Shown here one piece after another: positions 1 to 64,000 of a stretch of 64,000 nucleotides of DNA. Under the pieces are notes generated by a model that was not told the DNA's origin, searched no databases, and saw only the letters and a list, made by a program, of their open reading frames with translations. A program made the position numbers and the translations under genes. Origin of the DNA: Coffea arabica (lineage: Eukaryota > Streptophyta > Magnoliopsida > Gentianales > Rubiaceae). Where the stretch lies: NCBI RefSeq assembly GCF_036785885.1, contig NC_092317.1, positions 436,501-500,500 of the forward strand, read 5' to 3'. Position 1 is the stretch's first letter, and each line of letters opens with the position of its first letter.

Positions 1-1289
1 GCTTGTAATTGATAATCGACAAGGATACGTTGTACTAGTAGAACACAAAAATTCGTGAAAAAACTGATTTTTCTTTCTTGTGCGGTCGGTGATTTGCAGT
101 GTATCCATTGGTTCTTGAAAGACGAAACAGAAGTTGTAACATCTGATTGTGCCGTGTGTCACTATCTCCAGGATGCTAATTAAAGAGGGCCGTACGTGCT
201 TCGTTCTAACACTTTGGATATTGGTTTTGCATCTCCGAAACCATCCTTCATAAGTGATGATCGATCTTCTAAATATGATTAAGAATAGTGCTAATTACAC
301 CTGTTGATTGACTAATCGCGTACGTACTAAAAGAATAGGCTGTCAGTCATGATTCCCGAGAAGCTGGAGCACTGAACAAAGCCTAACAGGCTGGAATTAA
401 CAAGTGCACAATTGGGCCCATAGGTCGGACAGGACAAAGGGAGCAGGAGCCTCCAAGCGTCCTATCCGATCTACGAACATTCCCATATCTTTGGATTCAT
501 TCCCCCGTTTCATCAGCTTCTCTCTTTTCTTTTCTTTTTTTTAAGTGTTGATAATGGTCCAAATACAGCTAGTGTATGTCGAAGCTCCAAATTTGCAGCA
601 AAAGCAAGCGCTCCTAATCTGACGCTTTAAGCAAGCAGCTGTCAACGGCTGAATGGAGGACTTGAATGGCCCCCCACAAGTACAACGCGGTGTTCTTGAC
701 TGAGTTGCCTTGGTCATTTTGCAGAGAAGGAACACTTCCATGTAAGCACAGTTTTAAAAACCCAGTTTACAACTTACTTATTCTCTCAATTCGTTTTGCT
801 GCCCGGTTGAAATAAGTAAATGAATGGACAAAAGTTGCCCGCAGAATTACTTCCACTTTTCATTGAGCTGATTATCTATTGAAATCTCATCTATGGTTGC
901 GATTCTTTTGCCCTGGTGGTCATCACCAAATATTATTGCTTATTCTTACATCCTACATCAAGGGGATTAAACACGAAGGTATTAGCATACGAGTCCAAAG
1001 GATCTTAAGCCATAAATATCATATTATCACATTGCAGTTATCATATTACCACTAGATTAGAGCAAAACATTGCAGCAACTTCATGATTTAAGTCTTTATT
1101 TTTATTTCCTCATTAAACTATTTACTTTTAGTCTCATTGAATCTTATGTGACCATCCACCTTTTGGTTGAGTGATGATTGGCATTAAACTATGAGGTAAA
1201 GATGCAAAAGTTGTATTTATAGAGAGAAAAATATAAGAATGACTTGTTTTATTTTATGACGTGACACCGCTTCCAAATAAAGACAATGG

Positions 1290-1311
1290 CCTGTGCGAAT
1301 ATTCGCACAGG
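1290..1311. repeat. 22-bp perfect palindrome
   Basis: An 11-nt half-site (CCTGTGCGAAT) is followed directly by its exact reverse complement with no spacer. It lies in otherwise AT-rich non-coding DNA. It could be a transposon terminus remnant or a symmetric protein-binding site; nothing nearby decides which. Confidence 0.7.
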
Positions 1312-1468
1312 GTTGAATCTAATTTGTGATATATTATCAGCCTGCCCCAGTCACCTATCCACTTTTCCCAGTATACTTGTCGAAGAATATCGCCCCAATT
1401 ATCAGCTTTTGTATTTGTCAGGCAGTGCTTGCCTCGGGTACCCTCTTCTCAATGCGGGCAAGAAGCAA

Positions 1469-1614
1469 CTCACTATCCTGCAAAACATACAGGTATTGCA
1501 TGGTTTAAAAGGTCGGCGGAGAGAGACAGAAAAGCATATTACTCACTATCCTGCAAAACATACAGGTATTGCATGGTTTAAAAGGTCGGCAGAGAGAGAC
1601 AGAAAAGCATATTA
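1469..1614. repeat. 73-bp tandem duplication, two copies
   Basis: Positions 1469-1541 and 1542-1614 carry the same 73-bp segment, beginning CTCACTATCCTGC and ending AAGCATATTA. They differ by a single G/A in the GGTCGGC(G/A)GAG stretch. The copies are directly abutting, so this is a recent local duplication. No coding function is evident. Confidence 0.85.
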
Positions 1615-2091
1615 ATTTAAAGCAGTAAGGCATCCCTTTCTTCCATTCTTTGCTTCTGCTCCATGTTTCGATACTCCCTCCAAACACGATTAATTTCTAG
1701 TAGTCAATTCACAAAATTCAGGCACTTCATAAGCTTCCTCTCGATTATGCTAGAACGAAAAATATGTTAACCACGCCATATAGATGAAACAAGCCCATCC
1801 CCACCAGACAGATAGCAGTAAGCAAGCATTTGTGCAATATTCAATAATATTCAGGATTTTAGTTCTGCTGGAACTGTTGATCATGCTTGATATTCCTTTC
1901 TCCAGAGATTACTAGAAACCCACCTCACTTCCTCGATCCAAATGTCACAAATTTGACTGTAACAATGGCCAAGACAAAGGTAATTCATAATGGTGGTTGA
2001 CTTGGTGGCTTCCTCAGGCCATTGTAAGTTGTATAAAACAAGGGGGATGGGATGTTCAATATCCCGAGTCACACACCTGATGCTTTGAACT

Positions 2092-8551
<6,460 letters not shown>

Positions 8552-13179: not shown

Positions 13180-16100
13180 ATGGCAGAAGATATGAATAAA
13201 CCATTGCTAGCTCCTGAAAAGTTTAGTAGAGATGGAATTGATCTGGTAAGCTTTTACAACATTATCATTCAAGTTTAACATCAGAAAACTTCTGCTCAAG
13301 GCGTATGATATCACCGTCTATATGGCTTCAACAGGAACACATACCACTGGAAGAAGTGTTTGAACAACTGAGAACTTCACAAGCTGGACTTTCATCCGAA
13401 GATGCAGAAGTTCGATTGCAGATATTTGGCCCAAATAAACTTGAAGAGAAGCGGGTAAGTTTCCCATTCATAAAAGTAGATTATTAGTCAACAGTCCAAT
13501 GAAAGAAAGAGTGCCATCATTAATTTCGCAGCACTAAAATACAAGGTTCTGCCGATTTGCTTAAATGGGCATCACCATACTCCTGTAGAAAGCTCATATT
13601 GATGACATGCTTTCTTTGCAAAGATGAGGGTGTTCAGGGTGGAACAGGCGCAGAAAAGCAACCAGTGAATAGATACTTCTGATTATATATTCCTAATGAT
13701 GTGCTATGTTCTAATACAGTTTACACTGCATCGTACTTTAATTATTGCAGCACACTTGTGAAGCTCTCTGCTCATGGATTTCATTAGATCTTGCATATTC
13801 TTGTAGTTCGTTTGTCTTCTCAAAAGTTGTTTTCGGTCTCCAGGAAAATAAGATTTTGAAGTTTCTTAGTTTCATGTGGAATCCCTTGTCATGGGTCATG
13901 GAAGCTGCAGCGGTGATGGCAATTGTTCTTGCTAATGGTGGAGTGAGTTTAATGAACCTTTTCATTTCCTTTCTCACTATTCGTGTCAATTAATCGTCTG
14001 GAATGCATCATTTACTGGGCTTTTATTTTCTTCCTTGTACCGGTCTCTTAACGTGTAAAAAAAAATGGTGCACTTCAGGGGGAGGGTCCTGACTGGCAAG
14101 ACTTTTTGGGGATTATTTGCCTGTTGCTGATAAATTCAACAATTAGCTTTATTGAGGAAAACAATGCTGGAAATGCTGCTGCAGCCCTTATGGCACGTTT
14201 AGCTCCAAAATCTAAGGTTTGTATTTTCAATACTCCTCTGAAAATCAGCACCATCCTCTAAATTTATTTGACTAATAACTAACTCCGTTCCAGTCAACTG
14301 ACCAAGGACTCGAACATTGTCCAGAAACTCAAAGAGGCTTCTGCTTCCTGGAGTGTTCAATCTTCACGAGAGATGAATAAGGATGCAAGTTTATCACAGA
14401 AGAGAAAAATCAATCGGACCTCATTCTTAACATGTCACCGCAATCTTTTGTTTTATTCATGCATGATGCATCTGTTAGATACACAAAAATGATAAAAGTC
14501 ATTCATTTTGCGTTTCACAGACTGACTGATAAACCGCTCATTTTTCCCTTTCTAGTTCTAATACAACTTTCCAAGATTCAAGCTGAGTCTATTCAAACAT
14601 TACCTTCGTCTTTATTTGAAAAGATACGTACTAAAACATCAAACGGTGGTCTTCTTCTGCAGGTCCTAAGAGATGGAATATGGCAAGAGCAAGATGCAGC
14701 TATTCTAGTACCAGGAGATATTATTAGCATTAAGCTTGGAGACATCATCCCTGCAGATGCTCGCCTACTCGAGGGAGACCCCTTAAAAATTGACCAGGTA
14801 ACTTAATTTGAATATTACTTGCCAAATTCATGTAAAAGAATTAAAGAATTCCTCGACATGGGGCAAAATCATGGATTTATCTGCAGTCAGCTCTTACTGG
14901 AGAATCCCTACCTGTCACCAAGCGGACAGGTGATGAAGTTTATTCTGGATCTACTTGTAAACAAGGAGAAGTTGAAGCTGTAGTAATAGCTACAGGGGTT
15001 CACTCCTTTTTCGGCAAAGCTGCACATCTAGTTGACTCGACTGAAGTTGTTGGTCATTTCCAGAAGGTGACTAATTTATACTTCACAGAAATAGTTTAGC
15101 TTTACCCTATTTCCAAAACTAAATCACATAGATACTGAATAGAATAGGTAGATTGAACTTTAGGAGTCTCTGATCATGTCTGATATTGTATTTATTGGTG
15201 AATTTGCTCTTTTGGTTTGATTAGCTACAAACATACTGAAGTCAGTAAATTGCTTCTTCCTTCCCTTGTATACCAATGTTTATCCTTTTATGGTAAAAAT
15301 AGACTTCCACGACAGGAGGCCCTGTCTCTAATCCATAATCAGGGCCCGGAAACGTTATTACTAAAATTTTCAAGTTCTCAGTCGAATTGAAGTCTGTTTA
15401 GGATTGGAACTTTGAAGAAAGGGACATCTCTTTGCCGCAGGTCCTTACAGCAATTGGGAACTTCTGCATTTGCTCTATAGCTGTAGGAATGATACTGGAA
15501 ATCATTGTCATGTTCCCAGTACAGCACCGCTCGTACAGAAGTGGAATCAACAACCTTCTTGTGCTTTTAATTGGAGGAATACCAATAGCTATGCCAACAG
15601 TTTTATCTGTAACACTTGCAATTGGTTCTCATCGTCTCTCTCAACAGGTATAACTCTTATGCAAATTCTGGAACTAGCAGGAGTGTTATGGTTGTGTTTT
15701 ATTTCTTGAAAAGTAATTAATGTGAATGGCAAATGCTTACAAGATAGGTTTGATCAGTCGGACCATGTAGTCAGCAATGTAGTTCTCATTTCTTTTTGTG
15801 TTCCTTTCTTATCCCTTTCATTCATCTCTTCAGGGTGCCATTACAAAGAGGATGACAGCAATTGAAGAGATGGCTGGAATGGATGTTCTTTGCAGTGATA
15901 AAACAGGAACACTTACTCTGAATCGCCTCACTGTTGATCGGAACCTCATTGAGGTACAAAAGCAGCTTGACTGACTTCATATTTGTCAATACAAACATGT
16001 TGCTTTTTGCTAGGTAGGGATTTAATTGGCTTATACTTTGGAACATTGGTCAGCTAATACCTCAGAAAACCAGAAATGAAACATTTGTCAGTTTGGACTC

Positions 16101-21833: not shown

Positions 21834-22153
21834 TGACAAAATTTGAGTAAATTGACTGGAATCGGATGCGGTTCCTCTTCCTGGTCCTTTCTATTAAATA
21901 AGAATTCATGTACAATCTATTTTTGGTAAACCCCTATATATACTTGATTGATTGACCTAATATACAGCTATGGTAACTGATTTTCTATTCTAGGTAAGAA
22001 ATATATACAGATTTTAGCCATGATGTCTGTCATAATCTGCCATAATCTTTCCCATAACCTCTGCCATATAATTTGCCATAATCTTTCCCATAATATCTGC
22101 CACAATCTTTCCCATAACCTCTGCCACAATCTCTGCCATTGATACCATTGATA
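21834..22153 (-). repeat. 3' LTR of the copia element (320 bp)
   Basis: Same length as its partner at 26338-26657, with four substitutions, all in the repeated 12-bp-periodic part. On the minus strand it begins TATCAATGG and ends TTTTGTCA, so the termini are TA...CA rather than the canonical TG...CA. Confidence 0.95.
22039..22146 (-). repeat. 12-bp periodic repeat array in LTR U3
   Basis: Nine consecutive 12-bp modules, most starting GCCA on the plus strand, fill 108 bp. Pairs of modules form 24-bp units (GCCATAATCTTTCCCATAAC and variants) seen three times. The matching stretch in the other LTR is 26543-26650. It lies at the start of the LTR in element orientation, upstream of the TATA box, where retrotransposon enhancers usually sit. 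Confidence 0.8.
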
Positions 22154-22162: not shown

Positions 22163-25100
22163 AAATTGATGTTGGCTGATCAACAAGCATCAATTTATCA
22201 ACAAGAAAGTGATGACGATTTTTGGAGAGAGCTTTAGTAAACACATCCGCAATCTGGAGATCAGTGGGGATATGCGGAAGAGAGATGACCTGAGCATCAT
22301 ATGATTCACGAATAGAGTGACAATCCACTTCAATGTGTTTGGTACGCTCGTGAAATACTAGATTAGCCGCAATTTGAATTGCACTAGTGTTGTCGGCATG
22401 AAGCGGTGTAGACCCTTTTTGAGGAAACCCGAGCTCACCTAACAATCCACGGAGCCAAACAATTTCAGAGCATGGAGAAGACATAGCACGATACTCAGAC
22501 TCCGTAGAAGACTTAGACGCCCTGTCTTGCTTCTTGCTTTTCCAGGAAACGAGAGAAGTACCAAGGAACATGCACCAACCAGTAACTGAACGTCTAGTAT
22601 CAGAGCAACCAGTCCAATCAGCATTACTATATGCAATCAGGCGAATAGGAGAGTTTGCTGGAAAGAAAAGACCACGAGAAGAAGTGCCTTTCAAATAGCG
22701 AACAATGCGGCGAACAGCTGCCAAATGAAGGTGCCGAGGTGCTTGCATAAACTGACTAACTTGTTGAACAGCAAAAGAGATATCAGGACGAGTAATAGTC
22801 AGGTAGTTTAGACTACCCACCAGCTGTCGATATAAAGACGGATCAGAGATAAGATCACCTTCATCATGACGATACTTAACATTCACTTCCAAAGGGGTAT
22901 CAACGGATCGACCATCTTGAAGACCAGCCAAAGCAATTAACTCCCGAATGTATTTGTGCTGAGTTAAGAAAATACCGGTGGAACTAGAATATACCTCAAG
23001 ACCTAAAAAATACTGTAAAGAACCCAGGTCCTTCATATGGAAACAACGTTGAAGATAGTCTTGAAGTTGAGAAATCAATGCATAATCAGTCCCGGTAATA
23101 ACAATATCATCAACATATACAAGAAGTATGACAATGCCTTTAGATGTCTTGCAAAGAAACAAAGAGGAATCATACTGGATTTGGACAAAGGAGAAACCAA
23201 GAAGTGTGGAACGAAATTTATCAAACCAAGCACGTGGAGCTTGTTTCAAACCATAGAGTGATCGTTTCAACTTACAAACATCACCTGAAGGTGTGGAGAA
23301 TAACCCTGGTGGTGGAGTCATATAAATGTCTTCTTTCAGATCTCCATGTAAAAAGGCATTCTTAACGTCCATCTGTCACAGTGACCATCCCTTAGAAGCA
23401 GCAATGGCAAGAACAAGTCGTACCGTAGTCATCTTTGCTACAGGAGCAAATGTCTCCTCATAATTGATTCAATATTCCTGTCGATTACCAAGGGCCACCA
23501 ATCTCGCTTTATGTCTATCAAGCGTTCCATCGGACCGTAGTTTAATGGAATAGACCCATTTACAGCCAATGGGTTTTACACCAGTAGGACAAGGTACGAT
23601 GTCCCAAGTATGATTCTCCAAAAGAGCTTGAAGTTCTTCGTCCATAGCTTTTACCCAACATGCATGTTTAGTTGCTTGAGAATAAGAGGAATGTACTGCA
23701 GTGTCAACTAAAGCGGTAGAGAAACCATACCTATCAGGAGGTTTGCTGATACGGGAAGATCGTCGCAGAGTCACAGAATCATCAGAAGTGGTAGGCAGTG
23801 GAGCAGGATCGGGAAGGATTTCTACTGATGGAGGTCGTCGACGTTGATAGACAATGCCAGGTCTAAATCGTTGAATTGGTGGAGAGATATCATCAAAGCT
23901 AGGAAGAACAACATTGTTGGAAGGAAAAGTGTGCTGCGAAAAATAGTACTCATGCTCAAAGAAAATGACATGTCGAGAGACACGCAAACGATTAGCAACA
24001 GCATCATAACATAAGAATCCTTTTTGAGTGGTGCTATATCCCATAAAGGCACACCGAACTGACTGAGCTGCAAGCTTGTGGCGCTCATGAGGTGGTAGGT
24101 GAACAAAACAAACACAACCAAATGTGTGTAGCATGTGATAATTAGGATGTACACCAAAAAGACGATAATAAGGAGAATCAAAACCCAATTGTTGAGAAGG
24201 CAATCGATTAATCAAATACACAGCAGTTGACAAAGCTTCAACCCAAAATCTAGGGGGTACAGAAGATTGCAAGAGTAATGTTCGAACCATATCCAACAAA
24301 TGGCGGTTTTTGCGTTCAGCCACCCCATTTTGTTGAGGGGTATAAGGACATGATCTCTGAGATACAATCCCTTTGCGTTGCAAGTAGGCTTGGAAGTCAT
24401 GTGACACATATTCCCCACCATTATCAGACCGTAAGATCTTAATACAAGTGGAAAATTGTGTCTCAATGTAAGCCACAAAGGTTTGAAAAATAGTAAACAC
24501 CTCAGCTTTAGTGCGCAGGAAATATATCCATGTGAACCGACTATAGTCATCAATGAATGTCACAAAGTATTTATACTGCGCATGTGAAATGACAGGAGTA
24601 ATACCCCAAACATCACTATGTATTATCTCAAAGCATGCACTAGCACAACCAACAGAAGTAGGAAAAGGTAACATCTTACTCTTCCCCAATTTACACACAG
24701 AACAATCAAGAGATGATGCATGAGCAAAACCTTGATCTTTAGCACCAAGAAAACCACGCTTTATTAAATCAGATAAAATGACATTATTTGGATGACCCAA
24801 TCGTCTATGCCAAATTTCAGCCTTATTGTCAACAATCATAGAGGCTAAAGATAAAGTTCTAGGAACAGTAAATTGCAATGGAAATAATCTTCCCACTCTA
24901 GGCCCCTTCGCGATTACCTTCCCCGACATCTGGTCCTGCACAAGACAACCACCACGAGAGAAATGTACATCACAATGATTCTCCACTAGCTGTCCAACAG
25001 AGATTAAATTAGTAGACAACTTAGGAGCAACAAATACATGGCGAAAAGAATGTCCAATATCACCAATAGCTGTAATTGGAAGATTACTACCATTAGCAAT

Positions 25101-26186
25101 CTGAATATTTTGGCAACCAGTATATGGCCGCAAATTTTGTAAAAAATCAGATGAACCAGTCATATGATTGGTCGCTCCTGAGTCGATAAGCCAAGTAGAT
25201 GAAGCTGGCTTACCTTGACCTTGAAGTCCAAGGGCAGAAAATGCAGTAAGAATCATCTGTGGGACCATTTCTGGGGTCAGAACAGTCTGGCTGGTGGTAG
25301 ATGTAGGACCAATAACAGGAGCATCTGGAACAGTAGCTTGAAAAGCTTGGGCTCGCCTGTTTTCCGGACGTGTAGGACATTCCTTGAGAATATGTCCACT
25401 TTGCTTACAGTAACTGCAGAATTTCTTACCACAATTGCGAGCAATATGGCCAAACTCCTTGCAGCTGTAGCACTGCATTTGTCCCTTTCCTCTATTCCTT
25501 CCTTGTGCAGCATAAGCAACATTGACAACCTCTGATGTCCCACCAGCTGCACTTAGAATTGACTGTGTAGCCAATCTTTGTTCTTCCCGTAACAATTCAC
25601 CAACACACACATCCAAAGAAGGAACTGGATTTCGATTCAGCAATCCACCCCGAGCAGTCTCAAATTCTGGTCTCAGTTTCATCAAAAACTGATCACGCAT
25701 GCTAACTTGATGAACTTTTTGAAAGCTTGCTAAGGCCTCCTTAGGTATCTCAAAGTAGATGATATCAGAATATTCACCCCACAGATTTAGAAATGCAGAA
25801 TAATATTGCTCAATAGAGAGATTACCTTGACTGAACTTACTGATATCAAGTTCAAGCTGAAATCGTCTTGCAGTGTTGTGTTGATGATATATGCGTTTCA
25901 GAAAATTTCATATCTCCTTTGCAGTATTAAATGAACGTAAGCTGTTCACCATATGAGGTTCAATGGATGCTAAAATCCATGAAATAATTCGTGAATCATT
26001 TGATTCCCATTGACTTATTTCTTTCTCAGTTCCAGAAGCAGTAGAAGACCCATCAATGTGACCCCAAAGCTCCTTCCCTTTCAGAAACATTCTGAACTGA
26101 AATTCCCATGTTGCATAATTCTTCCCTGTAAGTCTGATACCCAAAGTCTCTGCAGATTGTCTTCCAAAAGAATTCTCAGCAGCCAT
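22161..26186 (-). pseudogene. copia gag-pol polyprotein, interrupted by three stop codons
   Basis: One continuous frame of 1342 codons beginning MAAENSFGRQ at 26186 and ending just before the polypurine tract. Order of parts: gag; two CCHC zinc knuckles (CYSCKEFGHIARNC and CSYCKQSGHILKEC); aspartic protease (WLIDSGATNHM); integrase with its HHCC finger (HRRLGHP ... CSVCKLGK) and catalytic Asp in SDVWG and Glu in DNGGEY context; reverse transcriptase with YVDD; RNase H ending near DVFTKAL. In-frame TGA codons occur at 25908-25910 (in gag), 23469-23471 and 23376-23378 (both in reverse transcriptase). No frameshift was found. With three stops no full polyprotein can be made, so the copy could move only with proteins supplied by a relative. 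Confidence 0.95.
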
Positions 26187-26337: not shown

Positions 26338-26657
26338 TGACAAAATTTGAGTAAATTGACTGGAATCGGATGCGGTTCCTCTTCCTGGTCCTTTCTATTA
26401 AATAAGAATTCATGTACAATCTATTTTTGGTAAACCCCTATATATACTTGATTGATTGACCTAATATACAGCTATGGTAACTGATTTTCTATTCTAGGTA
26501 AGAAATATATACAGATTTTATCCATAATGTCTGTCATAATCTGCCATAATATTTCCCATAACCTCTGCCATATAATCTGCCATAATCTTTCCCATAATAT
26601 CTGCCACAATCTTTCCCATAACCTCTGCCACAATCTCTGCCATTGATACCATTGATA
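26338..26657 (-). repeat. 5' LTR of the copia element (320 bp)
   Basis: Promoter-bearing LTR for the minus-strand element. It has a TATA-like TATATATAG at 26438-26446 and the 12-bp periodic array at 26543-26650 upstream of it. It is followed outside by the ACCGC target duplication at 26658-26662. Confidence 0.95.
26438..26446 (-). promoter_or_regulatory. TATA box in the 5' LTR
   Basis: TATATATAG on the minus strand lies about 210 bp into the LTR. It is the only good TATA match there and is correctly placed between U3 repeats and the R/U5 part. Confidence 0.55.
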
Positions 26658-27394: not shown

Positions 27395-30300
27395 CTATAA
27401 GGACGACATCTGGATTCTCTCCCTTCCGAGTCTTACAGAGTTAACATAGTCCAGTGGGCTGTGAGCGGAAATGCCAGGGATGACAAGTCCGACAACCCTG
27501 GCCAGTGTGGATACCCAACCTTCCTTGTACTCTGGCCCATATGCATAACCCGCCAGAAAGCTTCTAGTTAGCTCCCACATAGCGTTCAAATACTCTGGAA
27601 TCAGAAATCTGATCCCAAAGTAGTTCCTGTTTGGCTCCTCATCTACTTTCTTCGATGACAAACAGAAGTGAAAGATCATCAGCCATAAAAATAACAGGAA
27701 ATCAACTTTTGTTATTTCTGAAGTAAGTTTCTTCCACAGGTTTGATCATTTTAAAGATAGGGTATGGAGTGAAACAAAACCGCAAAGTTTTTAGCAAAAC
27801 TTTGGGAACGTAATATGTTCTTTTAACTGTTCGGTATGCATTCTTAGCAGACAATGATACTCTTCTGATTAGTTTCACATCTTATCATCCAGACCTTGCA
27901 TGTTTAAGACAAAAATGGCAGCGGCAAAGTGAATGGAAAAAAACCCATGTGAAAAGAGTCTGTAGCTCAGTGCTGGAGATATTACCTCGTAAGATACAAC
28001 TTTATAACCAGTGCTACCAAACCATAGGTAGACTATACACCAATCTAGGATGTGAACACAAGAAAAATAGAATAAGAATCTTACTTGTTCGATGTAGAGG
28101 CTGTTGTAATACAGGCACGCTCCAAAATGCTTGTACAGGAAGGTTTTGTTATCATATGGCAATCTTGGAACAAGGTCATTACAGTAGACCACCCTGAAGT
28201 ATTTGGGGACTGGATGATCCAGATGTGCTTCCATGAACCTTCCCAATTGCCTGTTCCCCACCCTGGGCTGTCCATATGTGTACACAGACAGCAACCTTTG
28301 CAAGACCTCCTCTTCCTTATGCAGCACTAGAACAACTGGGAATAGTATAGCCAGGGCCCCTCCTAGGCTATGCCCAGTGACAACAAATTTTGCATTTTTA
28401 TGCTCTTGAAGTAAGTCCTTAAGCTTGCTTCTCACAGCATAGTAAGCAGTCTTCTCTCCCATTTGAGGAAAGAATTTCTCCTTGCTTACCTTTGCGGGCT
28501 GCTCAGAATAAAAGGACTGTTCTGATCCACCTTGCGAATCAGAATCACCAAATGACGAAGATAATTCAGAAGCAGAGGTTCTCACATCAATACCGTTCAT
28601 GTTGGTAGATTTTTTGTTCATTATTCCTAGATTTTCTTGAAATGTAGATGCATTAACTCTGTTTCCCAAACCTAAAGCCTCTAAGAACCCCATGTGTACC
28701 TTTCCAAGTTTGGGGATCTCATACCAGGAATAGTCAAAATCAGTACTCCAATCATCAGCATCAAATGGCTCTGTTCCCCGGAAGCTGACTAATATCAAGT
28801 TTGCATCTTTTGGTTTATCACATAGAATGAAAACTTGAGTGGAGTTATCCTTCTGGAAATCTATCAATAGAGATAAAATTCCATATTAACAAAATGTAAG
28901 AAACAAAAATACATGTTAGGGATTTAAAATTCCCCAGAGAAGAGTGAAGCACAACGGAGGACACAGGTTTACGCATTGTAGTCTGAGGATTCTCGAAAGA
29001 CTCTTTCTCTTTCAATTTTTGCCTAATATTTTTTCCTCCAATGAGCACGGAGGGAAATTGGTTAATTATCACTAATACTGTTTGATGTACATGCCACATG
29101 AGTAGCAAGTCGAGTCTCACCATTCCAGCAGTTATAGAAGTCCACGAAGTGCATCTGCTCTTCCAAAACAAAAGAAATTAATCACCATTTAAAGAATGTC
29201 TAACTATCTGTGAACTGAAAAGGAGGACATGGCATACAAGTAAAGGGGCTTACCTTCCAATGAAGATTTACAACATTCCTGACAACCAACTCATTCTCGT
29301 AGGCTAACTTGGAAGCCATAATGCATAGATCCATAAGAGTCCTGCTTCCTGTCTCTACTTCAACAACTCTTTCCAGGGATTCAGGTTCACCAACTGCTCT
29401 AGTAATTGTCTCGCTCTTGTGCAGATATATGCGTCCATCAAGATGCCCAATTGCACTAATGAAAGTCTCAGAGCCTCTATTTGGCAGCACTATCTTTCCT
29501 ATTTTGTCATCGGCATTGATTAGTGAAGAACACAGCTGAACAGATAATAGCAGCACTTCTTGCAATAGCAACATAGGTAGTTCAAAATTTAGTAACGGTT
29601 CCCTTTGACTGAAACGAAAGACCAAGACAAGCATACATATCAGAACCGAACACCAAATTCACACAGCCACCTGCTCGAAGGGAAATTGCAAAAAAAAAAA
29701 AGAATATAGAATAAACTACGAACTCTTTTCAAATCCCCTAAACAATTCTTAAATCTTTAGAAGCAGAATCGCAAACTGAAAAGGGCATTATCATTTATTG
29801 AATTGAATACATATAGGGCCAATAACATTGTTTTGTAAGAGTGCAAAAAGCATATTGTCTGACAACATGCCGAGATTCAGACAGTAACGCGTACATGCAA
29901 GAGATGACAGTCAGTGCTTGTGTATGCATTCATGTTATTTCAAGATAAGGCTACATTAGAAATTTTCTGATTGAATCCTGTTTGATCATTTAGTCCAATA
30001 GGATTTATTTCAAAATGAGTGTAGATGAGTGCAACTCCAATCATGTAGGTCCGTCAAATTGCAAAGGATAAACGCAATCTTTGGGAAGAAATTAAGGACT
30101 TCACCGTGCAGGATGTTGTATAGCAAACCGAGAAAGCTGCCATTGACAGTGAAAAAGTTGAGGAAGAACTCCACGAGATAACCAGTCCATTCCATGGGTT
30201 TCCTGAAAATGCCTATGATTTTTCTGACTAAGATAGACACAAATATAACCCATCTGTGATCAGGGGTTTCTCCGTCGTCATCATCGCCATGCGCAGCGCC

Positions 30301-51556: not shown

Positions 51557-52373
51557 TCCGATCGATTCTTTCTTCTTTCTTCTGCTTTTGGTTATTATAT
51601 ATATCTATATATATATATATTTCTTTAGCGCACAAATATTCGATTGCTCCTGCAATATTTTCTTGTGCAACAATCCAAACCCGGATGACTTTCTACGCGC
51701 TCCTCAAATCAGCCTTCAGCTGGTGAATTTAAGTAGACAGGATGGAGTGGTATCTCAGCGTGGGCCTCACCTCATTACATGTGTGTATTTGGATTAGTGG
51801 ACTAACAATGTATGGGCTCAAATTGGATGCAAGTTAGATAACCTGGGCCAGCAGCCCAATTGTTTTAAGGCCACTGCTGTCATGAACGGTAAATACACAG
51901 GAGTAGTATTTTCTTAAAAAAAAATTTATATATATAATGATCAGAACTCAGAAGTCCCCAAAGGGACCATGGTAAATACTCGAGTTTTACGAAGTTACAA
52001 TTGGCTCATTGCTGTGAAATTAAATGGGGGTAAAAATGACATCATATTTTAATGTAAAAAAATTTTTTGGATGGATTTTTTTCTTTTTCTTTTTCTTTTT
52101 TTTCAAAGCAAGGCTTCAAACTTCACAAGAGATAGAGAAAGGAGAACATCATAGTGTCATAATCACCAACTACTAGTATCTTTACCAATTGAGTTTGAGT
52201 TGAGTATTAGGTACACGTAATCATACATTGAGTTAGATGTTGAGAATTTGTATAGCGTACAAAGGAGGGGAGCCGCGGTAAAAGAGGCTGTCCCACACGA
52301 GAGAAATCATATAGTAACTAAAATCCCTTGAAGGCTGGGGGATCAATTGTTGTATGCCAAGAGAATCATTATA
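51557..52373. other. RPT1 promoter side and left flank of the tandem array
   Basis: Immediately upstream of RPT1 is a (TA)n run (about 51595-51622) that could include its TATA region. The rest, up to the first array unit at 52374, is unremarkable AT-rich DNA with poly-A/T tracts. No gene is seen. Confidence 0.4.
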
Positions 52374-55300
52374 TCTACCTTGTATATAAGAAAACAACTT
52401 TCCTTTCCTCTTGCCACGTGGATTCTTAATTTTCTGACAAGTGGCAAGATTGAGTATTTCTTGCAAATTATCTAAAGCTTCTCTTGTCTATTTCTTTTCA
52501 TTCTTTTGCTATTGCACGTTCTTTCCTCAAATTGCACTGAAGCCTTTTCCTGCTCTGTCTACCACGCGCCTATTCTGAGCAAAATTCAGCACAGCTATTC
52601 TGAGCAGTCCAATCCCAACCGGCTGTGCGACCGAACCCTTCAGGTCATCACCACTCTTCAAGTCTTCTATTCCTTTTCTTCTTTTGCCATTGCTCTGTCT
52701 CTTTCCCTAATTGCCTATCCTGAGCAAGCCCGCTTCCAGCCGCCTGTGCTACCAAACCCATCAGTCAACAACCCTCTTCAACAACCCAATTCCATGATTT
52801 GGGCGATGGGTTTTGTGACTGCCTTCTTTAAGCCAGCAGGTCAACTGCTACTCCTGCAGGCGCTCGATATGCTGGTCATTCACGTGGTCTTTGTACTTGA
52901 GAGCAGGAGAATTGGGCGCAGGTGAACTGCTTTGCTTACACTGCCCGTTTTTCCCTCTTTCTCTAATATCCAATTAACCCGTTTCTGTATCAATTTCGTT
53001 TCATGTTGCCGAATTGTTGGAGCCTCACGTGATAATTGTACTTGAAAGGAGTGAAATGGGGAACTTTTTGTTAGGTATGCCATTCTATTCTGATCAGCTT
53101 TGGTATTCAATTTTCCGCCCAAATTATGCTTTCTATTCAACCTTCATCATCCGTATGATTACGATTAGAAATATCTGCTTGGATGTGATTTTTCCCTTAT
53201 TCCAGTTATGATAAGAAATAAGAAATAGGTTTCCTATTCACTTAGCCTGTACCTTTTCCAGTGGCTGACGAAATCAAAAAAATGGGATGGACGTATTTAT
53301 CAGTGCATCGTGCTAGCTTCGCTGCCTTGTGGACTGCAAGAAGAAGCCTCCGAGCCTTTACGCCTTGTTCTTTGGAGTCTCTCTGGTGAGAAAAAAACTC
53401 CCCCTTTTTTTTGCCAAATTTTCCTCTTATGAATAGCTCGCACAGTAATAAATTCTAATATACACATATGTTTCGATTCATAGGTTCCTTTTGCTGCGGT
53501 TCCTTCGAGGAATCTTTTAGCTTGGAGGTCAGTTTGTTGTTTTCCTTCAATCTATCACCATCTTTTCTTTATTTAAGTGCCTGTATTTTCATAAGTGAAA
53601 TTTCACCTTTCCCTTTTCTTTTTAGTAGTTTTCCTTCAGTTTCTGCTTCATTTATTTTAAGTTTATTGGTGCTATTTGTTTTGTGTCATCCTTTATGAAA
53701 CAAACGATTGCTTATTTGAGCAGGTGATTTTGTTAATTTGAAATATTTGATTAAAAATCTTTCTTATAGACATGGGCTTACAAAAATATTGCTGGGTAAC
53801 AGTTTAAATGGTGAATATTGGGTTGTAAAGGATGAATTATAGGTTGTGTGGAATAGTTGATTGTATGCTATCTTTATCATATTCTGCCCTTAAACTGTGC
53901 CGTAGTTAATTCAATCTGGCCAGCTTTAAAGATTGAAGTTCCAATTAATTCAAGCTGGCCAGCTTTAAAGGTTGAAGTACCAAGTTCACTATTTCCCTTG
54001 TGAAGAGCATATGCATGCTATAAATCAACACAAAGGACATCAGGTTGAACCCCTTGTTTGGGTAAGCCTGTGTACAAGAGAAATTGATGGGTGACGTAAA
54101 TCTCATATTGTTGCCTAAGAACAGTTATTTGAGCATAATATTGTGTCCAAAGTTATTTAATGTGGTCTAGAAATCATAACTTTTCTATCCAAAGCACTAT
54201 TGTACTTGTCATTACCATAGCCTTCTGTAACAAGTTCAATATTAACAATATTTGAAATTTAATAACATTCACAAGAAGTACATATGGATGGACAAACTTG
54301 GAAGAGTAACTGAGCTTCAAGGGTCAATTACTCTGCTTAGATTTTTGTACGAACTAAAGAATAGAAAAGACACATTTTAATTATTTCCAATACACTCGAT
54401 GGAACCTTGCAAGCTTTCAAATTTTTCCTGATGAATTCCGATTCTATAAATACAATGAGAAAATTCTGAATTTATTGCAAATGTTCATTATCATGGTAAT
54501 CATCCAATTTTATTCTTTTTTGTAGTATATAATTATATATATTTTAATTAGCTTTGCCAAAAAATTGGGAATCAATAAAACTTGCTTGGTGCTTTGCGGA
54601 TAGTTGATATAATCTACTGTGGTCTTTTTCTAAAACTATTTTTAAATTTTTATGGCTCTTAACTATTTTAAAATTTTTTTCCATAAAACTGTTTTTGTGC
54701 AAATACAATAAAAAAGTATTGCTACTCAATTATCAAGTTGAAAATATGCGTATCCACGTTCCATGTAAACTGTCAAACATAAAATGGCCTTGTGTCTTTC
54801 TTGCTTATGTTGTTTGGTACAATGTTGTCGGCTTCTTATTAGACTCTTGAATTTTTAGCTTTTCTGGATATCATTTTTGAATCTTGACTTCATTTTCACT
54901 ACTAATATTCGATAGGGTTAACTGCTCCATCATACACTAACATTTTCTGATGATTTTATTAGGTTTTTCAACTTTAAAATTCTCCATTTGACTCCTATAT
55001 ATTTCAACACAAATAAATGCAGTGTTTCAAACTTTCTGTGGGAAATCAATAGCTTCTCTTCCTGGAATCATTTTCACAGTTTGACCCAAAGCTTCAACGC
55101 AAACACTAATCTGCCATTAAAATTTTAGCTAAGATTTCAGCTTGACTCTAATGTATAATCTTAAGGTAGTTAGAGTAAGCAAAAGCTCTTGAAAATGTCA
55201 AGTCATATTAGACAACATGCATTCATTATGTCTATGACAGCTTGATTATCTCAAGCTTAGATTTTTTTTGGCATATAATGAGTGTCCTATTGGTTTGCAT

Positions 55301-56315
55301 ATAATGAATAGACTAAATAACAAATTATTGCTCAGAATTAAAAGCTGTTCACCCATTTGCTGATGTTATTCTAGGTAACTGAGCTGTCCTATTGGTTTGC
55401 ATATAATGAGTATTCTATCAAATAGTCAAATTGCTATATACACACTAGAAAAAAGATTGTAGTGATGGACATCAATAACAGATTTTATGCACCAAAGTCA
55501 TTTCCAACCTCCTGGTACTGATGCTCTGGTCTTTAATCACAATGAAGCTATACAGACTCTAAGTTAGTTTTTCTTACAATACACATGTCTGCTATATGTG
55601 ACCTGTTGTTGTTCTAAATGAGGAATGGGAGTGCTTATCTATTTTTAAGATAACATTAAGCTGGCCAACCTTTTTTAGTGATCTAAATGCCTATTGGTTA
55701 AGCAGCTTAAGACTTTGTACTTCTTGTTTCTAATTGCTTACTTAGTGTGTTCCTTGTTTGCTGTTTCGTTTAGGCTAGACTTGTCTGGGGCAATGAAAAG
55801 CTCAATGGTTATTTTTAAAGGATATTGTATGTAGGCCATTCTTCGTCTGTTATTCATTGTAGTCTTTTTACTCAAAGCTCATTCACTCATTTATATGCCT
55901 ATCAGTTCAACATCTTAGGTTATTGTGCCTGTTTTATCCCAAGTATATACACTCTATTTTTTTGCTTGAAATTGCAGAAGTATGTGTAAATATATATGTT
56001 AATCTTATCTAGATGTATCATTGGGTCCCCTAATAGCATTAATTTGACTACCATTCGAGCTGAATCGGGAAGAAAACAAATTGCAGTAGGATGTAGTTCT
56101 TGCATTGAGGAGTTGGCTGCTTTTAATCATTCGTGTATTTGACAAAGGTGAAAGTGCCACTTATGGGAGTCGGTCTTGCCTTTGTGGACTAAATGGATTT
56201 CTTAAGGTCATAAAGCTGCAATACACATTTCTGATTTTGATCTCCTTTGGTGTAATGAACATACTTTAATGTACTTTTCAAACTTGTTTCTGTGCCTTGG
56301 AGAGTAAAGTACATT
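52374..56315 (+). repeat. Tandem array unit 1 (3942 bp)
   Basis: First copy of a 3.94-kb direct repeat. It begins TCTACCTTGTATATAAG and is preceded by host sequence ending in A. It carries CTTGCCAC and GTGGCAAG as subterminal inverted repeats near 52408-52447. Against unit 2 I saw six differences (two 1-bp indels, four substitutions), all within the first 1.25 kb. One indel shortens an A-run and shifts the frame of an exon-like segment. Confidence 0.95.
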
Positions 56316-59300
56316 TCTACCTTGTATATAAGAAAACAACTTTCCTTTCCTCTTGCCACGTGGATTCTTAATTTTCTGACAAGTGGCAAGATTGAGTATT
56401 TCTTGCAAATTATCTAAAGCTTCTCTTGTCTATTTCTTTTCATTCTTTTGCTATTGCACCGTTCTTTCCTCAAATTGCACTGAAGCCTTTTCCTGCTCTG
56501 TCTACCACGCGCCTATTCTGAGCAAAATTCAGCACAGCTATTCTGAGCAGTCCAATCCCAACCGGCTGTGCGACCGAACCCTTCAGGTCATCACCACTCT
56601 TCAAGTCTTCTATTCCTTTTCTTCTTTTGCCATTGCTCTGTCTCTTTCCCTAATTGCCTATCCTGAGCAAGCCCGCTTCCAGCCGCCTGTGCTACCAAAC
56701 CCATCAGTCAACAACCCTCTTCAACAACCCAATTCCATGATTTGGGCGATGGGTTTTGTGACTGCCTTCTTTAAGCCAGCAGGTCAACTGCTACTCCTGC
56801 AGGCGCTCGATATGCTGGTCATTCACGTGGTCTTTGTACTTGAGAGCAGGAGAATTGGGCGCAGGTGAACTGCTTTGCTTACACTGCCCGTTTTTCCCTC
56901 TTTCTCTAATATCCAATTAACCCGTTTCTGTATCAATTTCGTTTCATGTTGCCGAATTGTTGGAGCCTCACGTGATAATTGTACTTCAAAGGAGTGAAAT
57001 GGGGAACTTTTTGTTAGGTATGCCATTCTATTCTGATCAGCTTTGGTATTCAATTTTCCGCCCAAATTATGCTTTCTATTCAACCTTCATCATCCGTATG
57101 ATTACGATTAGAAATATCTGCTTGGATGTGATTTTTCTCTTATTCCAGTTATGATAAGAAATAAGAAATAGGTTTCCTATTCACTTAGCCTGTACCTTTT
57201 CCAGTGGCTGACGAAATCAAAAAAAATGGGATGGACGTATTTATCAGTGCATCGTGCTGGCTTCGCTGCCTTGTGGACTGCAAGAAGAAGCCTCCGAGCC
57301 TTTACGCCTTGTTCTTTGGAGTCTCTCTGGTGAGAAAAAAACTCCCCCTTTTTTTTGCCAAATTTTCCTCTTATGAATAGCTCGCACAGTAATAAATTCT
57401 AATATACACATATGTTTCGATTCATAGGTTCCTTTTGCTGCGGTTCCTTCGAGGAATCTTTTAGCTTGGAGGTCAGTTTGTTGTTTTCCTTCAATCTATC
57501 ACCATCTTTTCTTTATTTAAGTGCCTGTATTTTCATAAGTGGAATTTCACCTTTCCCTTTTCTTTTTAGTAGTTTTCCTTCAGTTTCTGCTTCATTTATT
57601 TTAAGTTTATTGGTGCTATTTGTTTTGTGTCATCCTTTATGAAACAAACGATTGCTTATTTGAGCAGGTGATTTTGTTAATTTGAAATATTTGATTAAAA
57701 ATCTTTCTTATAGACATGGGCTTACAAAAATATTGCTGGGTAACAGTTTAAATGGTGAATATTGGGTTGTAAAGGATGAATTATAGGTTGTGTGGAATAG
57801 TTGATTGTATGCTATCTTTATCATATTCTGCCCTTAAACTGTGCCGTAGTTAATTCAATCTGGCCAGCTTTAAAGATTGAAGTTCCAATTAATTCAAGCT
57901 GGCCAGCTTTAAAGGTTGAAGTACCAAGTTCACTATTTCCCTTGTGAAGAGCATATGCATGCTATAAATCAACACAAAGGACATCAGGTTGAACCCCTTG
58001 TTTGGGTAAGCCTGTGTACAAGAGAAATTGATGGGTGACGTAAATCTCATATTGTTGCCTAAGAACAGTTATTTGAGCATAATATTGTGTCCAAAGTTAT
58101 TTAATGTGGTCTAGAAATCATAACTTTTCTATCCAAAGCACTATTGTACTTGTCATTACCATAGCCTTCTGTAACAAGTTCAATATTAACAATATTTGAA
58201 ATTTAATAACATTCACAAGAAGTACATATGGATGGACAAACTTGGAAGAGTAACTGAGCTTCAAGGGTCAATTACTCTGCTTAGATTTTTGTACGAACTA
58301 AAGAATAGAAAAGACACATTTTAATTATTTCCAATACACTCGATGGAACCTTGCAAGCTTTCAAATTTTTCCTGATGAATTCCGATTCTATAAATACAAT
58401 GAGAAAATTCTGAATTTATTGCAAATGTTCATTATCATGGTAATCATCCAATTTTATTCTTTTTTGTAGTATATAATTATATATATTTTAATTAGCTTTG
58501 CCAAAAAATTGGGAATCAATAAAACTTGCTTGGTGCTTTGCGGATAGTTGATATAATCTACTGTGGTCTTTTTCTAAAACTATTTTTAAATTTTTATGGC
58601 TCTTAACTATTTTAAAATTTTTTTCCATAAAACTGTTTTTGTGCAAATACAATAAAAAAGTATTGCTACTCAATTATCAAGTTGAAAATATGCGTATCCA
58701 CGTTCCATGTAAACTGTCAAACATAAAATGGCCTTGTGTCTTTCTTGCTTATGTTGTTTGGTACAATGTTGTCGGCTTCTTATTAGACTCTTGAATTTTT
58801 AGCTTTTCTGGATATCATTTTTGAATCTTGACTTCATTTTCACTACTAATATTCGATAGGGTTAACTGCTCCATCATACACTAACATTTTCTGATGATTT
58901 TATTAGGTTTTTCAACTTTAAAATTCTCCATTTGACTCCTATATATTTCAACACAAATAAATGCAGTGTTTCAAACTTTCTGTGGGAAATCAATAGCTTC
59001 TCTTCCTGGAATCATTTTCACAGTTTGACCCAAAGCTTCAACGCAAACACTAATCTGCCATTAAAATTTTAGCTAAGATTTCAGCTTGACTCTAATGTAT
59101 AATCTTAAGGTAGTTAGAGTAAGCAAAAGCTCTTGAAAATGTCAAGTCATATTAGACAACATGCATTCATTATGTCTATGACAGCTTGATTATCTCAAGC
59201 TTAGATTTTTTTTGGCATATAATGAGTGTCCTATTGGTTTGCATATAATGAATAGACTAAATAACAAATTATTGCTCAGAATTAAAAGCTGTTCACCCAT

Positions 59301-60259
59301 TTGCTGATGTTATTCTAGGTAACTGAGCTGTCCTATTGGTTTGCATATAATGAGTATTCTATCAAATAGTCAAATTGCTATATACACACTAGAAAAAAGA
59401 TTGTAGTGATGGACATCAATAACAGATTTTATGCACCAAAGTCATTTCCAACCTCCTGGTACTGATGCTCTGGTCTTTAATCACAATGAAGCTATACAGA
59501 CTCTAAGTTAGTTTTTCTTACAATACACATGTCTGCTATATGTGACCTGTTGTTGTTCTAAATGAGGAATGGGAGTGCTTATCTATTTTTAAGATAACAT
59601 TAAGCTGGCCAACCTTTTTTAGTGATCTAAATGCCTATTGGTTAAGCAGCTTAAGACTTTGTACTTCTTGTTTCTAATTGCTTACTTAGTGTGTTCCTTG
59701 TTTGCTGTTTCGTTTAGGCTAGACTTGTCTGGGGCAATGAAAAGCTCAATGGTTATTTTTAAAGGATATTGTATGTAGGCCATTCTTCGTCTGTTATTCA
59801 TTGTAGTCTTTTTACTCAAAGCTCATTCACTCATTTATATGCCTATCAGTTCAACATCTTAGGTTATTGTGCCTGTTTTATCCCAAGTATATACACTCTA
59901 TTTTTTTGCTTGAAATTGCAGAAGTATGTGTAAATATATATGTTAATCTTATCTAGATGTATCATTGGGTCCCCTAATAGCATTAATTTGACTACCATTC
60001 GAGCTGAATCGGGAAGAAAACAAATTGCAGTAGGATGTAGTTCTTGCATTGAGGAGTTGGCTGCTTTTAATCATTCGTGTATTTGACAAAGGTGAAAGTG
60101 CCACTTATGGGAGTCGGTCTTGCCTTTGTGGACTAAATGGATTTCTTAAGGTCATAAAGCTGCAATACACATTTCTGATTTTGATCTCCTTTGGTGTAAT
60201 GAACATACTTTAATGTACTTTTCAAACTTGTTTCTGTGCCTTGGAGAGTAAAGTACATT
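56316..60259 (+). repeat. Tandem array unit 2 (3944 bp)
   Basis: Starts immediately after unit 1 with the same TCTACCTTGTATATAAG. By eye it is identical to unit 3 except for one base (T at 59162, G at 63106). Confidence 0.97.
57205..59778 (+). other. Exon-like chain of unknown family inside array unit 2
   Basis: Three segments with canonical splice borders keep one reading frame: 57205-57329 (after TTTTCCAG, before GTGAGA), 57428-57471 (after TTCATAG, before GTCAGT) and 59718-59778 (after CGTTTAG, ending in TAG). An upstream segment ending at 56864 (GCGCAG before GTGAAC) joins in frame as RAGELGAVADEIKKNGMD. Further readable stretches are FISASCWLRCLVDCKKKPP and VPFAAVPSRNLLAWR. I do not recognise a family. 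Unit 3 has the same chain 3944 bp later; unit 1 is frameshifted. This may be a captured gene fragment or a genuine small gene; the splice model is inference. Confidence 0.35.
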
Positions 60260-63200
60260 TCTACCTTGTATATAAGAAAACAACTTTCCTTTCCTCTTGC
60301 CACGTGGATTCTTAATTTTCTGACAAGTGGCAAGATTGAGTATTTCTTGCAAATTATCTAAAGCTTCTCTTGTCTATTTCTTTTCATTCTTTTGCTATTG
60401 CACCGTTCTTTCCTCAAATTGCACTGAAGCCTTTTCCTGCTCTGTCTACCACGCGCCTATTCTGAGCAAAATTCAGCACAGCTATTCTGAGCAGTCCAAT
60501 CCCAACCGGCTGTGCGACCGAACCCTTCAGGTCATCACCACTCTTCAAGTCTTCTATTCCTTTTCTTCTTTTGCCATTGCTCTGTCTCTTTCCCTAATTG
60601 CCTATCCTGAGCAAGCCCGCTTCCAGCCGCCTGTGCTACCAAACCCATCAGTCAACAACCCTCTTCAACAACCCAATTCCATGATTTGGGCGATGGGTTT
60701 TGTGACTGCCTTCTTTAAGCCAGCAGGTCAACTGCTACTCCTGCAGGCGCTCGATATGCTGGTCATTCACGTGGTCTTTGTACTTGAGAGCAGGAGAATT
60801 GGGCGCAGGTGAACTGCTTTGCTTACACTGCCCGTTTTTCCCTCTTTCTCTAATATCCAATTAACCCGTTTCTGTATCAATTTCGTTTCATGTTGCCGAA
60901 TTGTTGGAGCCTCACGTGATAATTGTACTTCAAAGGAGTGAAATGGGGAACTTTTTGTTAGGTATGCCATTCTATTCTGATCAGCTTTGGTATTCAATTT
61001 TCCGCCCAAATTATGCTTTCTATTCAACCTTCATCATCCGTATGATTACGATTAGAAATATCTGCTTGGATGTGATTTTTCTCTTATTCCAGTTATGATA
61101 AGAAATAAGAAATAGGTTTCCTATTCACTTAGCCTGTACCTTTTCCAGTGGCTGACGAAATCAAAAAAAATGGGATGGACGTATTTATCAGTGCATCGTG
61201 CTGGCTTCGCTGCCTTGTGGACTGCAAGAAGAAGCCTCCGAGCCTTTACGCCTTGTTCTTTGGAGTCTCTCTGGTGAGAAAAAAACTCCCCCTTTTTTTT
61301 GCCAAATTTTCCTCTTATGAATAGCTCGCACAGTAATAAATTCTAATATACACATATGTTTCGATTCATAGGTTCCTTTTGCTGCGGTTCCTTCGAGGAA
61401 TCTTTTAGCTTGGAGGTCAGTTTGTTGTTTTCCTTCAATCTATCACCATCTTTTCTTTATTTAAGTGCCTGTATTTTCATAAGTGGAATTTCACCTTTCC
61501 CTTTTCTTTTTAGTAGTTTTCCTTCAGTTTCTGCTTCATTTATTTTAAGTTTATTGGTGCTATTTGTTTTGTGTCATCCTTTATGAAACAAACGATTGCT
61601 TATTTGAGCAGGTGATTTTGTTAATTTGAAATATTTGATTAAAAATCTTTCTTATAGACATGGGCTTACAAAAATATTGCTGGGTAACAGTTTAAATGGT
61701 GAATATTGGGTTGTAAAGGATGAATTATAGGTTGTGTGGAATAGTTGATTGTATGCTATCTTTATCATATTCTGCCCTTAAACTGTGCCGTAGTTAATTC
61801 AATCTGGCCAGCTTTAAAGATTGAAGTTCCAATTAATTCAAGCTGGCCAGCTTTAAAGGTTGAAGTACCAAGTTCACTATTTCCCTTGTGAAGAGCATAT
61901 GCATGCTATAAATCAACACAAAGGACATCAGGTTGAACCCCTTGTTTGGGTAAGCCTGTGTACAAGAGAAATTGATGGGTGACGTAAATCTCATATTGTT
62001 GCCTAAGAACAGTTATTTGAGCATAATATTGTGTCCAAAGTTATTTAATGTGGTCTAGAAATCATAACTTTTCTATCCAAAGCACTATTGTACTTGTCAT
62101 TACCATAGCCTTCTGTAACAAGTTCAATATTAACAATATTTGAAATTTAATAACATTCACAAGAAGTACATATGGATGGACAAACTTGGAAGAGTAACTG
62201 AGCTTCAAGGGTCAATTACTCTGCTTAGATTTTTGTACGAACTAAAGAATAGAAAAGACACATTTTAATTATTTCCAATACACTCGATGGAACCTTGCAA
62301 GCTTTCAAATTTTTCCTGATGAATTCCGATTCTATAAATACAATGAGAAAATTCTGAATTTATTGCAAATGTTCATTATCATGGTAATCATCCAATTTTA
62401 TTCTTTTTTGTAGTATATAATTATATATATTTTAATTAGCTTTGCCAAAAAATTGGGAATCAATAAAACTTGCTTGGTGCTTTGCGGATAGTTGATATAA
62501 TCTACTGTGGTCTTTTTCTAAAACTATTTTTAAATTTTTATGGCTCTTAACTATTTTAAAATTTTTTTCCATAAAACTGTTTTTGTGCAAATACAATAAA
62601 AAAGTATTGCTACTCAATTATCAAGTTGAAAATATGCGTATCCACGTTCCATGTAAACTGTCAAACATAAAATGGCCTTGTGTCTTTCTTGCTTATGTTG
62701 TTTGGTACAATGTTGTCGGCTTCTTATTAGACTCTTGAATTTTTAGCTTTTCTGGATATCATTTTTGAATCTTGACTTCATTTTCACTACTAATATTCGA
62801 TAGGGTTAACTGCTCCATCATACACTAACATTTTCTGATGATTTTATTAGGTTTTTCAACTTTAAAATTCTCCATTTGACTCCTATATATTTCAACACAA
62901 ATAAATGCAGTGTTTCAAACTTTCTGTGGGAAATCAATAGCTTCTCTTCCTGGAATCATTTTCACAGTTTGACCCAAAGCTTCAACGCAAACACTAATCT
63001 GCCATTAAAATTTTAGCTAAGATTTCAGCTTGACTCTAATGTATAATCTTAAGGTAGTTAGAGTAAGCAAAAGCTCTTGAAAATGTCAAGTCATATTAGA
63101 CAACAGGCATTCATTATGTCTATGACAGCTTGATTATCTCAAGCTTAGATTTTTTTTGGCATATAATGAGTGTCCTATTGGTTTGCATATAATGAATAGA

Positions 63201-64000
63201 CTAAATAACAAATTATTGCTCAGAATTAAAAGCTGTTCACCCATTTGCTGATGTTATTCTAGGTAACTGAGCTGTCCTATTGGTTTGCATATAATGAGTA
63301 TTCTATCAAATAGTCAAATTGCTATATACACACTAGAAAAAAGATTGTAGTGATGGACATCAATAACAGATTTTATGCACCAAAGTCATTTCCAACCTCC
63401 TGGTACTGATGCTCTGGTCTTTAATCACAATGAAGCTATACAGACTCTAAGTTAGTTTTTCTTACAATACACATGTCTGCTATATGTGACCTGTTGTTGT
63501 TCTAAATGAGGAATGGGAGTGCTTATCTATTTTTAAGATAACATTAAGCTGGCCAACCTTTTTTAGTGATCTAAATGCCTATTGGTTAAGCAGCTTAAGA
63601 CTTTGTACTTCTTGTTTCTAATTGCTTACTTAGTGTGTTCCTTGTTTGCTGTTTCGTTTAGGCTAGACTTGTCTGGGGCAATGAAAAGCTCAATGGTTAT
63701 TTTTAAAGGATATTGTATGTAGGCCATTCTTCGTCTGTTATTCATTGTAGTCTTTTTACTCAAAGCTCATTCACTCATTTATATGCCTATCAGTTCAACA
63801 TCTTAGGTTATTGTGCCTGTTTTATCCCAAGTATATACACTCTATTTTTTTGCTTGAAATTGCAGAAGTATGTGTAAATATATATGTTAATCTTATCTAG
63901 ATGTATCATTGGGTCCCCTAATAGCATTAATTTGACTACCATTCGAGCTGAATCGGGAAGAAAACAAATTGCAGTAGGATGTAGTTCTTGCATTGAGGAG
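60260..64000 (+). repeat. Tandem array unit 3, cut by the window end
   Basis: 3741 bp of the unit are visible; about 203 bp would lie beyond the window. The array may continue, so total copy number is unknown. Confidence 0.97.

Follow-up and report, generated by a model that had tools for sequence, protein, structure and literature searches.

The 64,000-nucleotide window analyzed here (C8:436501-500500) ends inside a 78-kb complex of tandem Helitron copies, in which seven truncated 3.94-kb units are followed by three tandem 16.93-kb units that each open with the same 3.94 kb. Judging from the arrangement of variants along the copies, we consider it probable that Helitron activity made a small seed, consisting of one truncated and two full copies, and that unequal homologous exchange enlarged it. 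The region analyzed comprised the window and the adjoining 120 kb, a 184-kb stretch containing no N. Coordinates past the window continue its numbering (C8 position = value + 436500), and all copy numbers are as assembled. The complex extends from 52374 to 130763 (C8:567263), or 0.49-0.57 Mb from the start of the 48.75-Mb contig.

When the end of the window was compared with itself at shifts of 200-5999, there was one clear period, 3944, with a self-match of 82% at this shift vs. 36% at 3943 and ~30% or less at the other listed shifts. The near-identical 3.94-kb tandem array reported in an earlier, sequence-only reading is therefore real, and its first unit starts at 52374, precisely where the element's 5′ terminus begins. 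That reading had counted two complete units and 95% of a third, which agrees with 3741 of the 3944 bases of the third unit lying inside the window, and the array that it saw running off the window continues in the adjoining 120 kb. Eight 3.94-kb copies follow one another head to tail, starting at 52374, 56316, 60260, 64204, 68148, 72092, 76036 and 79980, the last being the front of the first 16.93-kb unit. The truncated units, all on the forward strand where they lie in the window, are U1 (52374-56315, 3942 bp, preceded by a host A at 52373), U2 (56316-60259, 3944 bp), U3 (60260-64203, in the window to 64000) and, beyond the window, U4-U7 (64204-79979). The three full copies are F1 (79980-96911), F2 (96914-113837) and F3 (113840-130763), and adjoining F3 is H4 (130764-132499), a Helitron-type element as judged by its termini. 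The 5′ terminus, TCTACCTTGTATATAAG, is found at 52374-52390 in U1, 56316-56332 in U2 and 60260-60276 in U3 (all forward strand), with eight exact copies in the extended locus.

The 16.93-kb unit is identified as a Helitron, a rolling-circle transposon, by its 5′ TC end, its 3′ hairpin and CTAG before a T, its A/T flanks (slashes mark boundaries), and its RepHel protein (an HUH Rep with a PIF1-type helicase); the 3.94-kb unit is its first part, upstream of the recognized coding part. At 52374 the terminal TC follows an A (A/TCTACC), while F2 and F3 are without the terminal 5′ bases. All three full copies end in a hairpin with an 8-bp stem and a 3-nt loop, GGCTGTGC-TTA-GCACAGCC, then 9 nt, CTAG, and a T. 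Reading of the ends and flanks revealed neither terminal inverted repeats nor a target duplication, only the A/T target. A search of the genome (1.198 Gb, 131 contigs) with the 21-base 5′ end at two or fewer mismatches found 286 places, eight of them in the array, compared with three for the reversed control. From the 100 places listed we cut out 10 loci, and in all 10 an A directly precedes the TC; their flanks differ and the sequences agree only from the TC on. In F1, a 1126-codon open frame (RepHel, 87346-90723) matches Helitron_like_N (PF14214, 2e-62), PIF1 (PF05970, 3e-72) and also Pif1_2B, and its best PDB match is Helraiser (7lcc chain E, 3.9e-255, residues 28-1119). A second open frame at 86377-87306 is in the same frame, and the stops between the two may be an intron or a defect. 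An RPA-like companion gene is frequent in plant Helitrons, and here a DUF223 match was weak, with an E of 0.14 only.

The truncated units contain the element's 5′ end and a leader without a recognized domain. A gene or gene-family array was rejected, as the longest frame of the unit (162 codons) had no Pfam match at E 0.001, and the window yielded neither a tRNA nor an Rfam match at the gathering score. The sequence-only reading had noted correctly that the unit has no LTRs or long TIRs, but it did not recognize the unit as a Helitron 5′ part, Helitrons being a class without LTRs, TIRs or target duplications. Termini and copy number rule out an LTR element, a MITE or a satellite; satellite DNA forms long many-copy arrays, and here ten copies of the 3.94-kb part sit at one locus.

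The joints between copies are of two kinds. Seven read ACATT/TCTACC, with an internal point of the element, R1, directly abutting the next unit's 5′ terminus; the U1-U2 joint, ACATT/TCTACCTTG, is at 56311-56324 and the U2-U3 joint at 60255-60268 (both forward strand), and five more identical ones lie past the window. The sequence carries on past R1 into the remainder of the element at three places, only inside the full copies. Where one full copy meets the next, both joints read CTAG/TT/TTGTATA, so that F2 and F3 miss six terminal bases and have two bases instead. H4 begins with TCTACC immediately after the last CTAG and ends in a hairpin and CTTG/T. The complex is thus flanked by the host A at 52373 on one side and by H4's first T on the other, a regular A/T site, and as a whole has one canonical A/TC start and one CTAG/T end. 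A nested Helitron insertion at R1 was discarded, since the sequence that follows R1 is confined to the three full copies, and outside the complex the 184-kb stretch showed nothing resembling F3. Nor does R1 lie inside a MITE: there are no terminal repeats at the edges of F1 3560-4310, and only one 11-bp inverted pair inside.

Elsewhere in the genome, the next relatives of these copies are diverged single elements. A search with the unit, as the sequence-only reading had proposed, found no near-identical copies: the nearest relatives of the 5′ kilobase reach 92% over 0.74 kb (among 40 of 114 candidates scored), and those of the kilobase around R1 reach 97% (among 40 of 74 candidates scored). 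The array copies have therefore probably multiplied in place rather than arrived as separate insertions from a burst. Among the same 40 of 74 candidates, seven matches end at R1, all in the array. Six matches outside the locus cross R1 at 94-97% identity (C7:9.23, C8:15.69, C8:15.60, C10:5.97, C2:12.70 and C14:21.53 Mb) and three fetched relatives are without the ~720 bp containing R1, so R1 is not a regular end of the family. The two C8 relatives share the same 5′ flank and may be one duplicated insertion.

Two other loci carry repeated parts of related elements. At C7:2.966 Mb (C7:2963501-2971500, positions 2032-3179 of that piece), a 574-bp Helitron 5′ part ends internally and abuts a second 5′ end (TTTACCTTG). 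The two 5′ stretches are 97.6% identical, and the architecture is the same as in the array, making it a second case. The relative on C10 (C10:5967801-5977800, positions 2969-5282) has a 774-bp internal tandem triplication, 99.9% identical, which covers the equivalent of R1 and is not bounded by element ends.

How the array grew can be read from the few variants that it contains. Across the ten 3.94-kb parts, eight aligned columns vary, and the units are 99.7-100% identical. U3-U7 are identical over 3938 aligned bases (about 19.7 kb in all), which supports the very recent amplification that had been suggested from the window, and U2 and U3 differ, as had been seen by eye, at exactly one aligned site (column 2841, T vs. 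G). Ancestral states were taken from up to seven relatives as outgroup, of which the two on C8 may represent a single one; four loci spanned site 2841, and one or two spanned the 3′ sites. Derived states common to U1, F2 and F3 are 138-del and 2841-T, the latter also present in U2; 817-T and 1221-G are derived and common to U2-U7 and F1, site 817 being less secure because one of the seven relatives (on C7) also has 817-T. Derived 3428-G is common to F1-F3, 666-G and 938-A are found in U1 only, and site 898 is a poly-A length with an ambiguous ancestral state.

Three types of copy are mosaics. U2 is F1-like up to 1221, with the 5′ sites of U3-F1, and U1-like from 2841 on; U3-U7 are F1-like up to 2841 and U1-like at 3428; and F2 equals F3 at 5/5 differing 5′ sites (one a poly-A length) and F1 at 7/7 differing 3′ sites. 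All three hybrid types have the same polarity, with the 5′ part from the downstream copy and the 3′ part from the upstream copy, and every hybrid has its inferred parents on either side. This polarity and order are exactly what unequal crossing-over produces when it lengthens an array, whereas rolling-circle copying from one template does not produce them. In a four-gamete table of six unit classes and the inferred ancestor, from which site 898 was dropped as ambiguous, all four combinations occur at six site pairs, and at four of these pairs without any inferred ancestor. The mosaics among the truncated units rest on few sites, with site 3428 taking part in four of the six conflicts and 2841 in the remaining two, so that a pair of recurrent mutations could imitate them; the case for the F2 mosaic is far stronger.

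The groupings of U1, F1 and F3 are not tree-like either: 138 and 2841 group U1 with F3, and 3428 groups F1 with F3, and therefore at least one further exchange or conversion took place. Across an 8.6-kb middle (82.8-91.4 kb and its equivalents), F1-F3 show no difference vs. 12 differences outside it, the 12 F1/F3 differences including the poly-A length site 898 (P 0.0026 for such a difference-free middle, or 0.0049 without the poly-A site). This clean middle suggests gene conversion as well. Mutation rates of 7e-9 and 2e-9 per site per year give rough dates: the outer parts of F1 and F3 split ~0.1 million years ago at the higher rate and ~0.36 million at the lower one, and the upper bound on the U3-U7 expansion (95%, star-like) is ~22,000 or ~76,000 years, respectively.

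We regard the seed as having been U1-F1-F3, inferred to derive from Helitron activity. An aberrant Helitron event would have laid down one truncated unit and then full copies, the likely route being a nick placed exactly at the 5′ end with premature closure at R1, because in the bat element Helraiser the 5′ end is required and precise and the 3′ end is not; the Helraiser work describes an essential, precise 5′ end, a dispensable 3′ end, and truncated and read-through products (PMC4778049). Misaligned homologous recombination between the near-identical copies would then have expanded the single truncated unit to seven and added a third full copy to the first two. Two more points tell against this explanation. 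The identity of U3-U7 is explained equally well by rolling-circle copying, and the junction between full copies, CTAG/TT/TTG, is not the precise CTAG/TC join of a Helitron circle. Precisely joined circles are described in PMC5876387, about half having aberrant junctions before DpnI digestion.

Rolling-circle replication might instead have made the whole array in one go, with a Helitron circle that had lost its 3′ terminator giving rise to a concatemer of truncated units, which was inserted along with full copies. Replication of this kind is the published model for truncated Helitron arrays, many of which combine several 5′ ends with one 3′ end (Xiong et al., 2016, as reported in PMC12628747), and it would account for joins exactly at the 5′ TC end, for the identity of U3-U7, and for a complex with one canonical A/TC start and one CTAG/T end. 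One template should give identical units, however, so that the spatially ordered mosaics U2, U3-U7 and F2 would need later recombination, and outside the array no match ended at R1 among the 40 of 74 candidates scored. Taking both sides together, we consider this origin unlikely.

R1 is also the end of a 10-bp inverted repeat, AATGTACTTT...AAAGTACATT (56268-56315, forward strand), perfect in 10/10 pairs. In relatives that have this stretch, 7 or 8 of the 10 pairs match, as counted by eye. Perfect inverted repeats of at least 10 bp end at 61 of 51,800 window positions, a rarity figure that is post hoc because the repeat was noticed after the fact. Substitutions could have made the repeat perfect, and the new hairpin could have acted as a premature terminator, founding a 5′-only Helitron derivative that unequal exchange then turned into a proto-satellite. 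If this were true, the R1 hairpin would be a terminator born inside an element and caught at its origin. We keep it as a speculative lead of rather low probability, because of its post hoc discovery and because the five new 3′ ends reported for Helraiser (PMC4778049) have no palindrome in their last 30 bp.

An ordinary tandem duplication, arising from replication slippage or end joining, would need no Helitron enzymes, with the left breakpoint falling at the Helitron 5′ end by chance. R1 is no Helitron 3′ end, its join allows one base of microhomology (T), and element ends do not bound the triplication in the C10 relative, all of which fit such an event. But the left breakpoint is the element's terminal base, and at C7:2.966 Mb a 5′ part again abuts a second 5′ end, which makes a chance breakpoint a very unlikely account. 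An assembly artefact, with a true unit number lower or higher than assembled, is highly improbable: the ~19.7 kb of identical U3-U7 is hard to count without very long reads, but the distinct types U1, U2, U3 and F1 stand in fixed order, both ends are anchored in non-array sequence with no N, and an artefact would account for the number of U3-type units, not for the array. The duplication of a single unit in assembly, which the sequence-only reading had left open, is likewise unlikely given these ordered variants and anchors, the exact number being as assembled.

The kind of array is already known, a Helitron 5′-end array, and the youth and mosaic units of this one make it a good test case for array growth. 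PMC12628747 credits Xiong et al. (2016) with describing truncated Helitron arrays in 27 plant genomes, and such arrays or tandem insertions are also mentioned in PMC8268682 and PMC5148889. The present locus resembles the plant arrays, as these papers present them, in its head-to-tail truncated Helitrons and multiple 5′ ends, with seven R1/5′ joins before F1 and no intact 3′ end until the run finishes. Arrays of this type are mostly centromeric. The present locus differs from them in several respects: those arrays are partly decayed, whereas here the units are near-identical, full-length copies stand in tandem behind them, the locus lies ~0.49 Mb from the contig end, and the variants indicate growth by unequal exchange. 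Unequal crossing-over has been named as lengthening and shortening Helitron-associated satellite arrays (PMC8268682) and is discussed for tandem transposon copies generally (PMC12628747). A limited search of open papers found no young array with a growth step read from its variants. The partial decay of published arrays hides their mode of growth, while here near-identity and the adjacent full copies separate seed formation from growth. This suggests that transposition may only start such arrays and that ordinary unequal recombination builds them.

With Helraiser and Helibat the element shares the TC 5′ end, the hairpin and CTAG 3′ end, the A/T target and RepHel, and those systems are also reported to yield products whose 5′ ends are precise and whose 3′ ends are truncated or read-through (PMC4778049; PMC5876387); unlike them, this is a natural plant array known from its sequence. 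Head-to-tail Helitrons in maize, in which CTAG is followed directly by TC, resemble the F3/H4 boundary, but according to PMC2267711 the maize pair consists of different elements, which were judged to be consecutive insertions, whereas F1-F3 are copies of one element. The same paper cites head-to-tail tandem Helitrons in bat (Pritham and Feschotte).

The complex is located among genes. The window contains a Class 3 lipase open frame (27878-28885, reverse strand) and an E1-E2 ATPase stretch (14381-14803, forward strand), and a RING-finger frame lies past the complex. Copia-type polyprotein pieces (rve, RVT_2 and gag_pre-integrs) occupy two adjacent open frames at 22164-25907 (reverse strand), flanked by two related 12/36-bp minisatellites (CCATAATCTCTG-like) at 22032-22139 and 26522-26643, ~4.4 kb apart.
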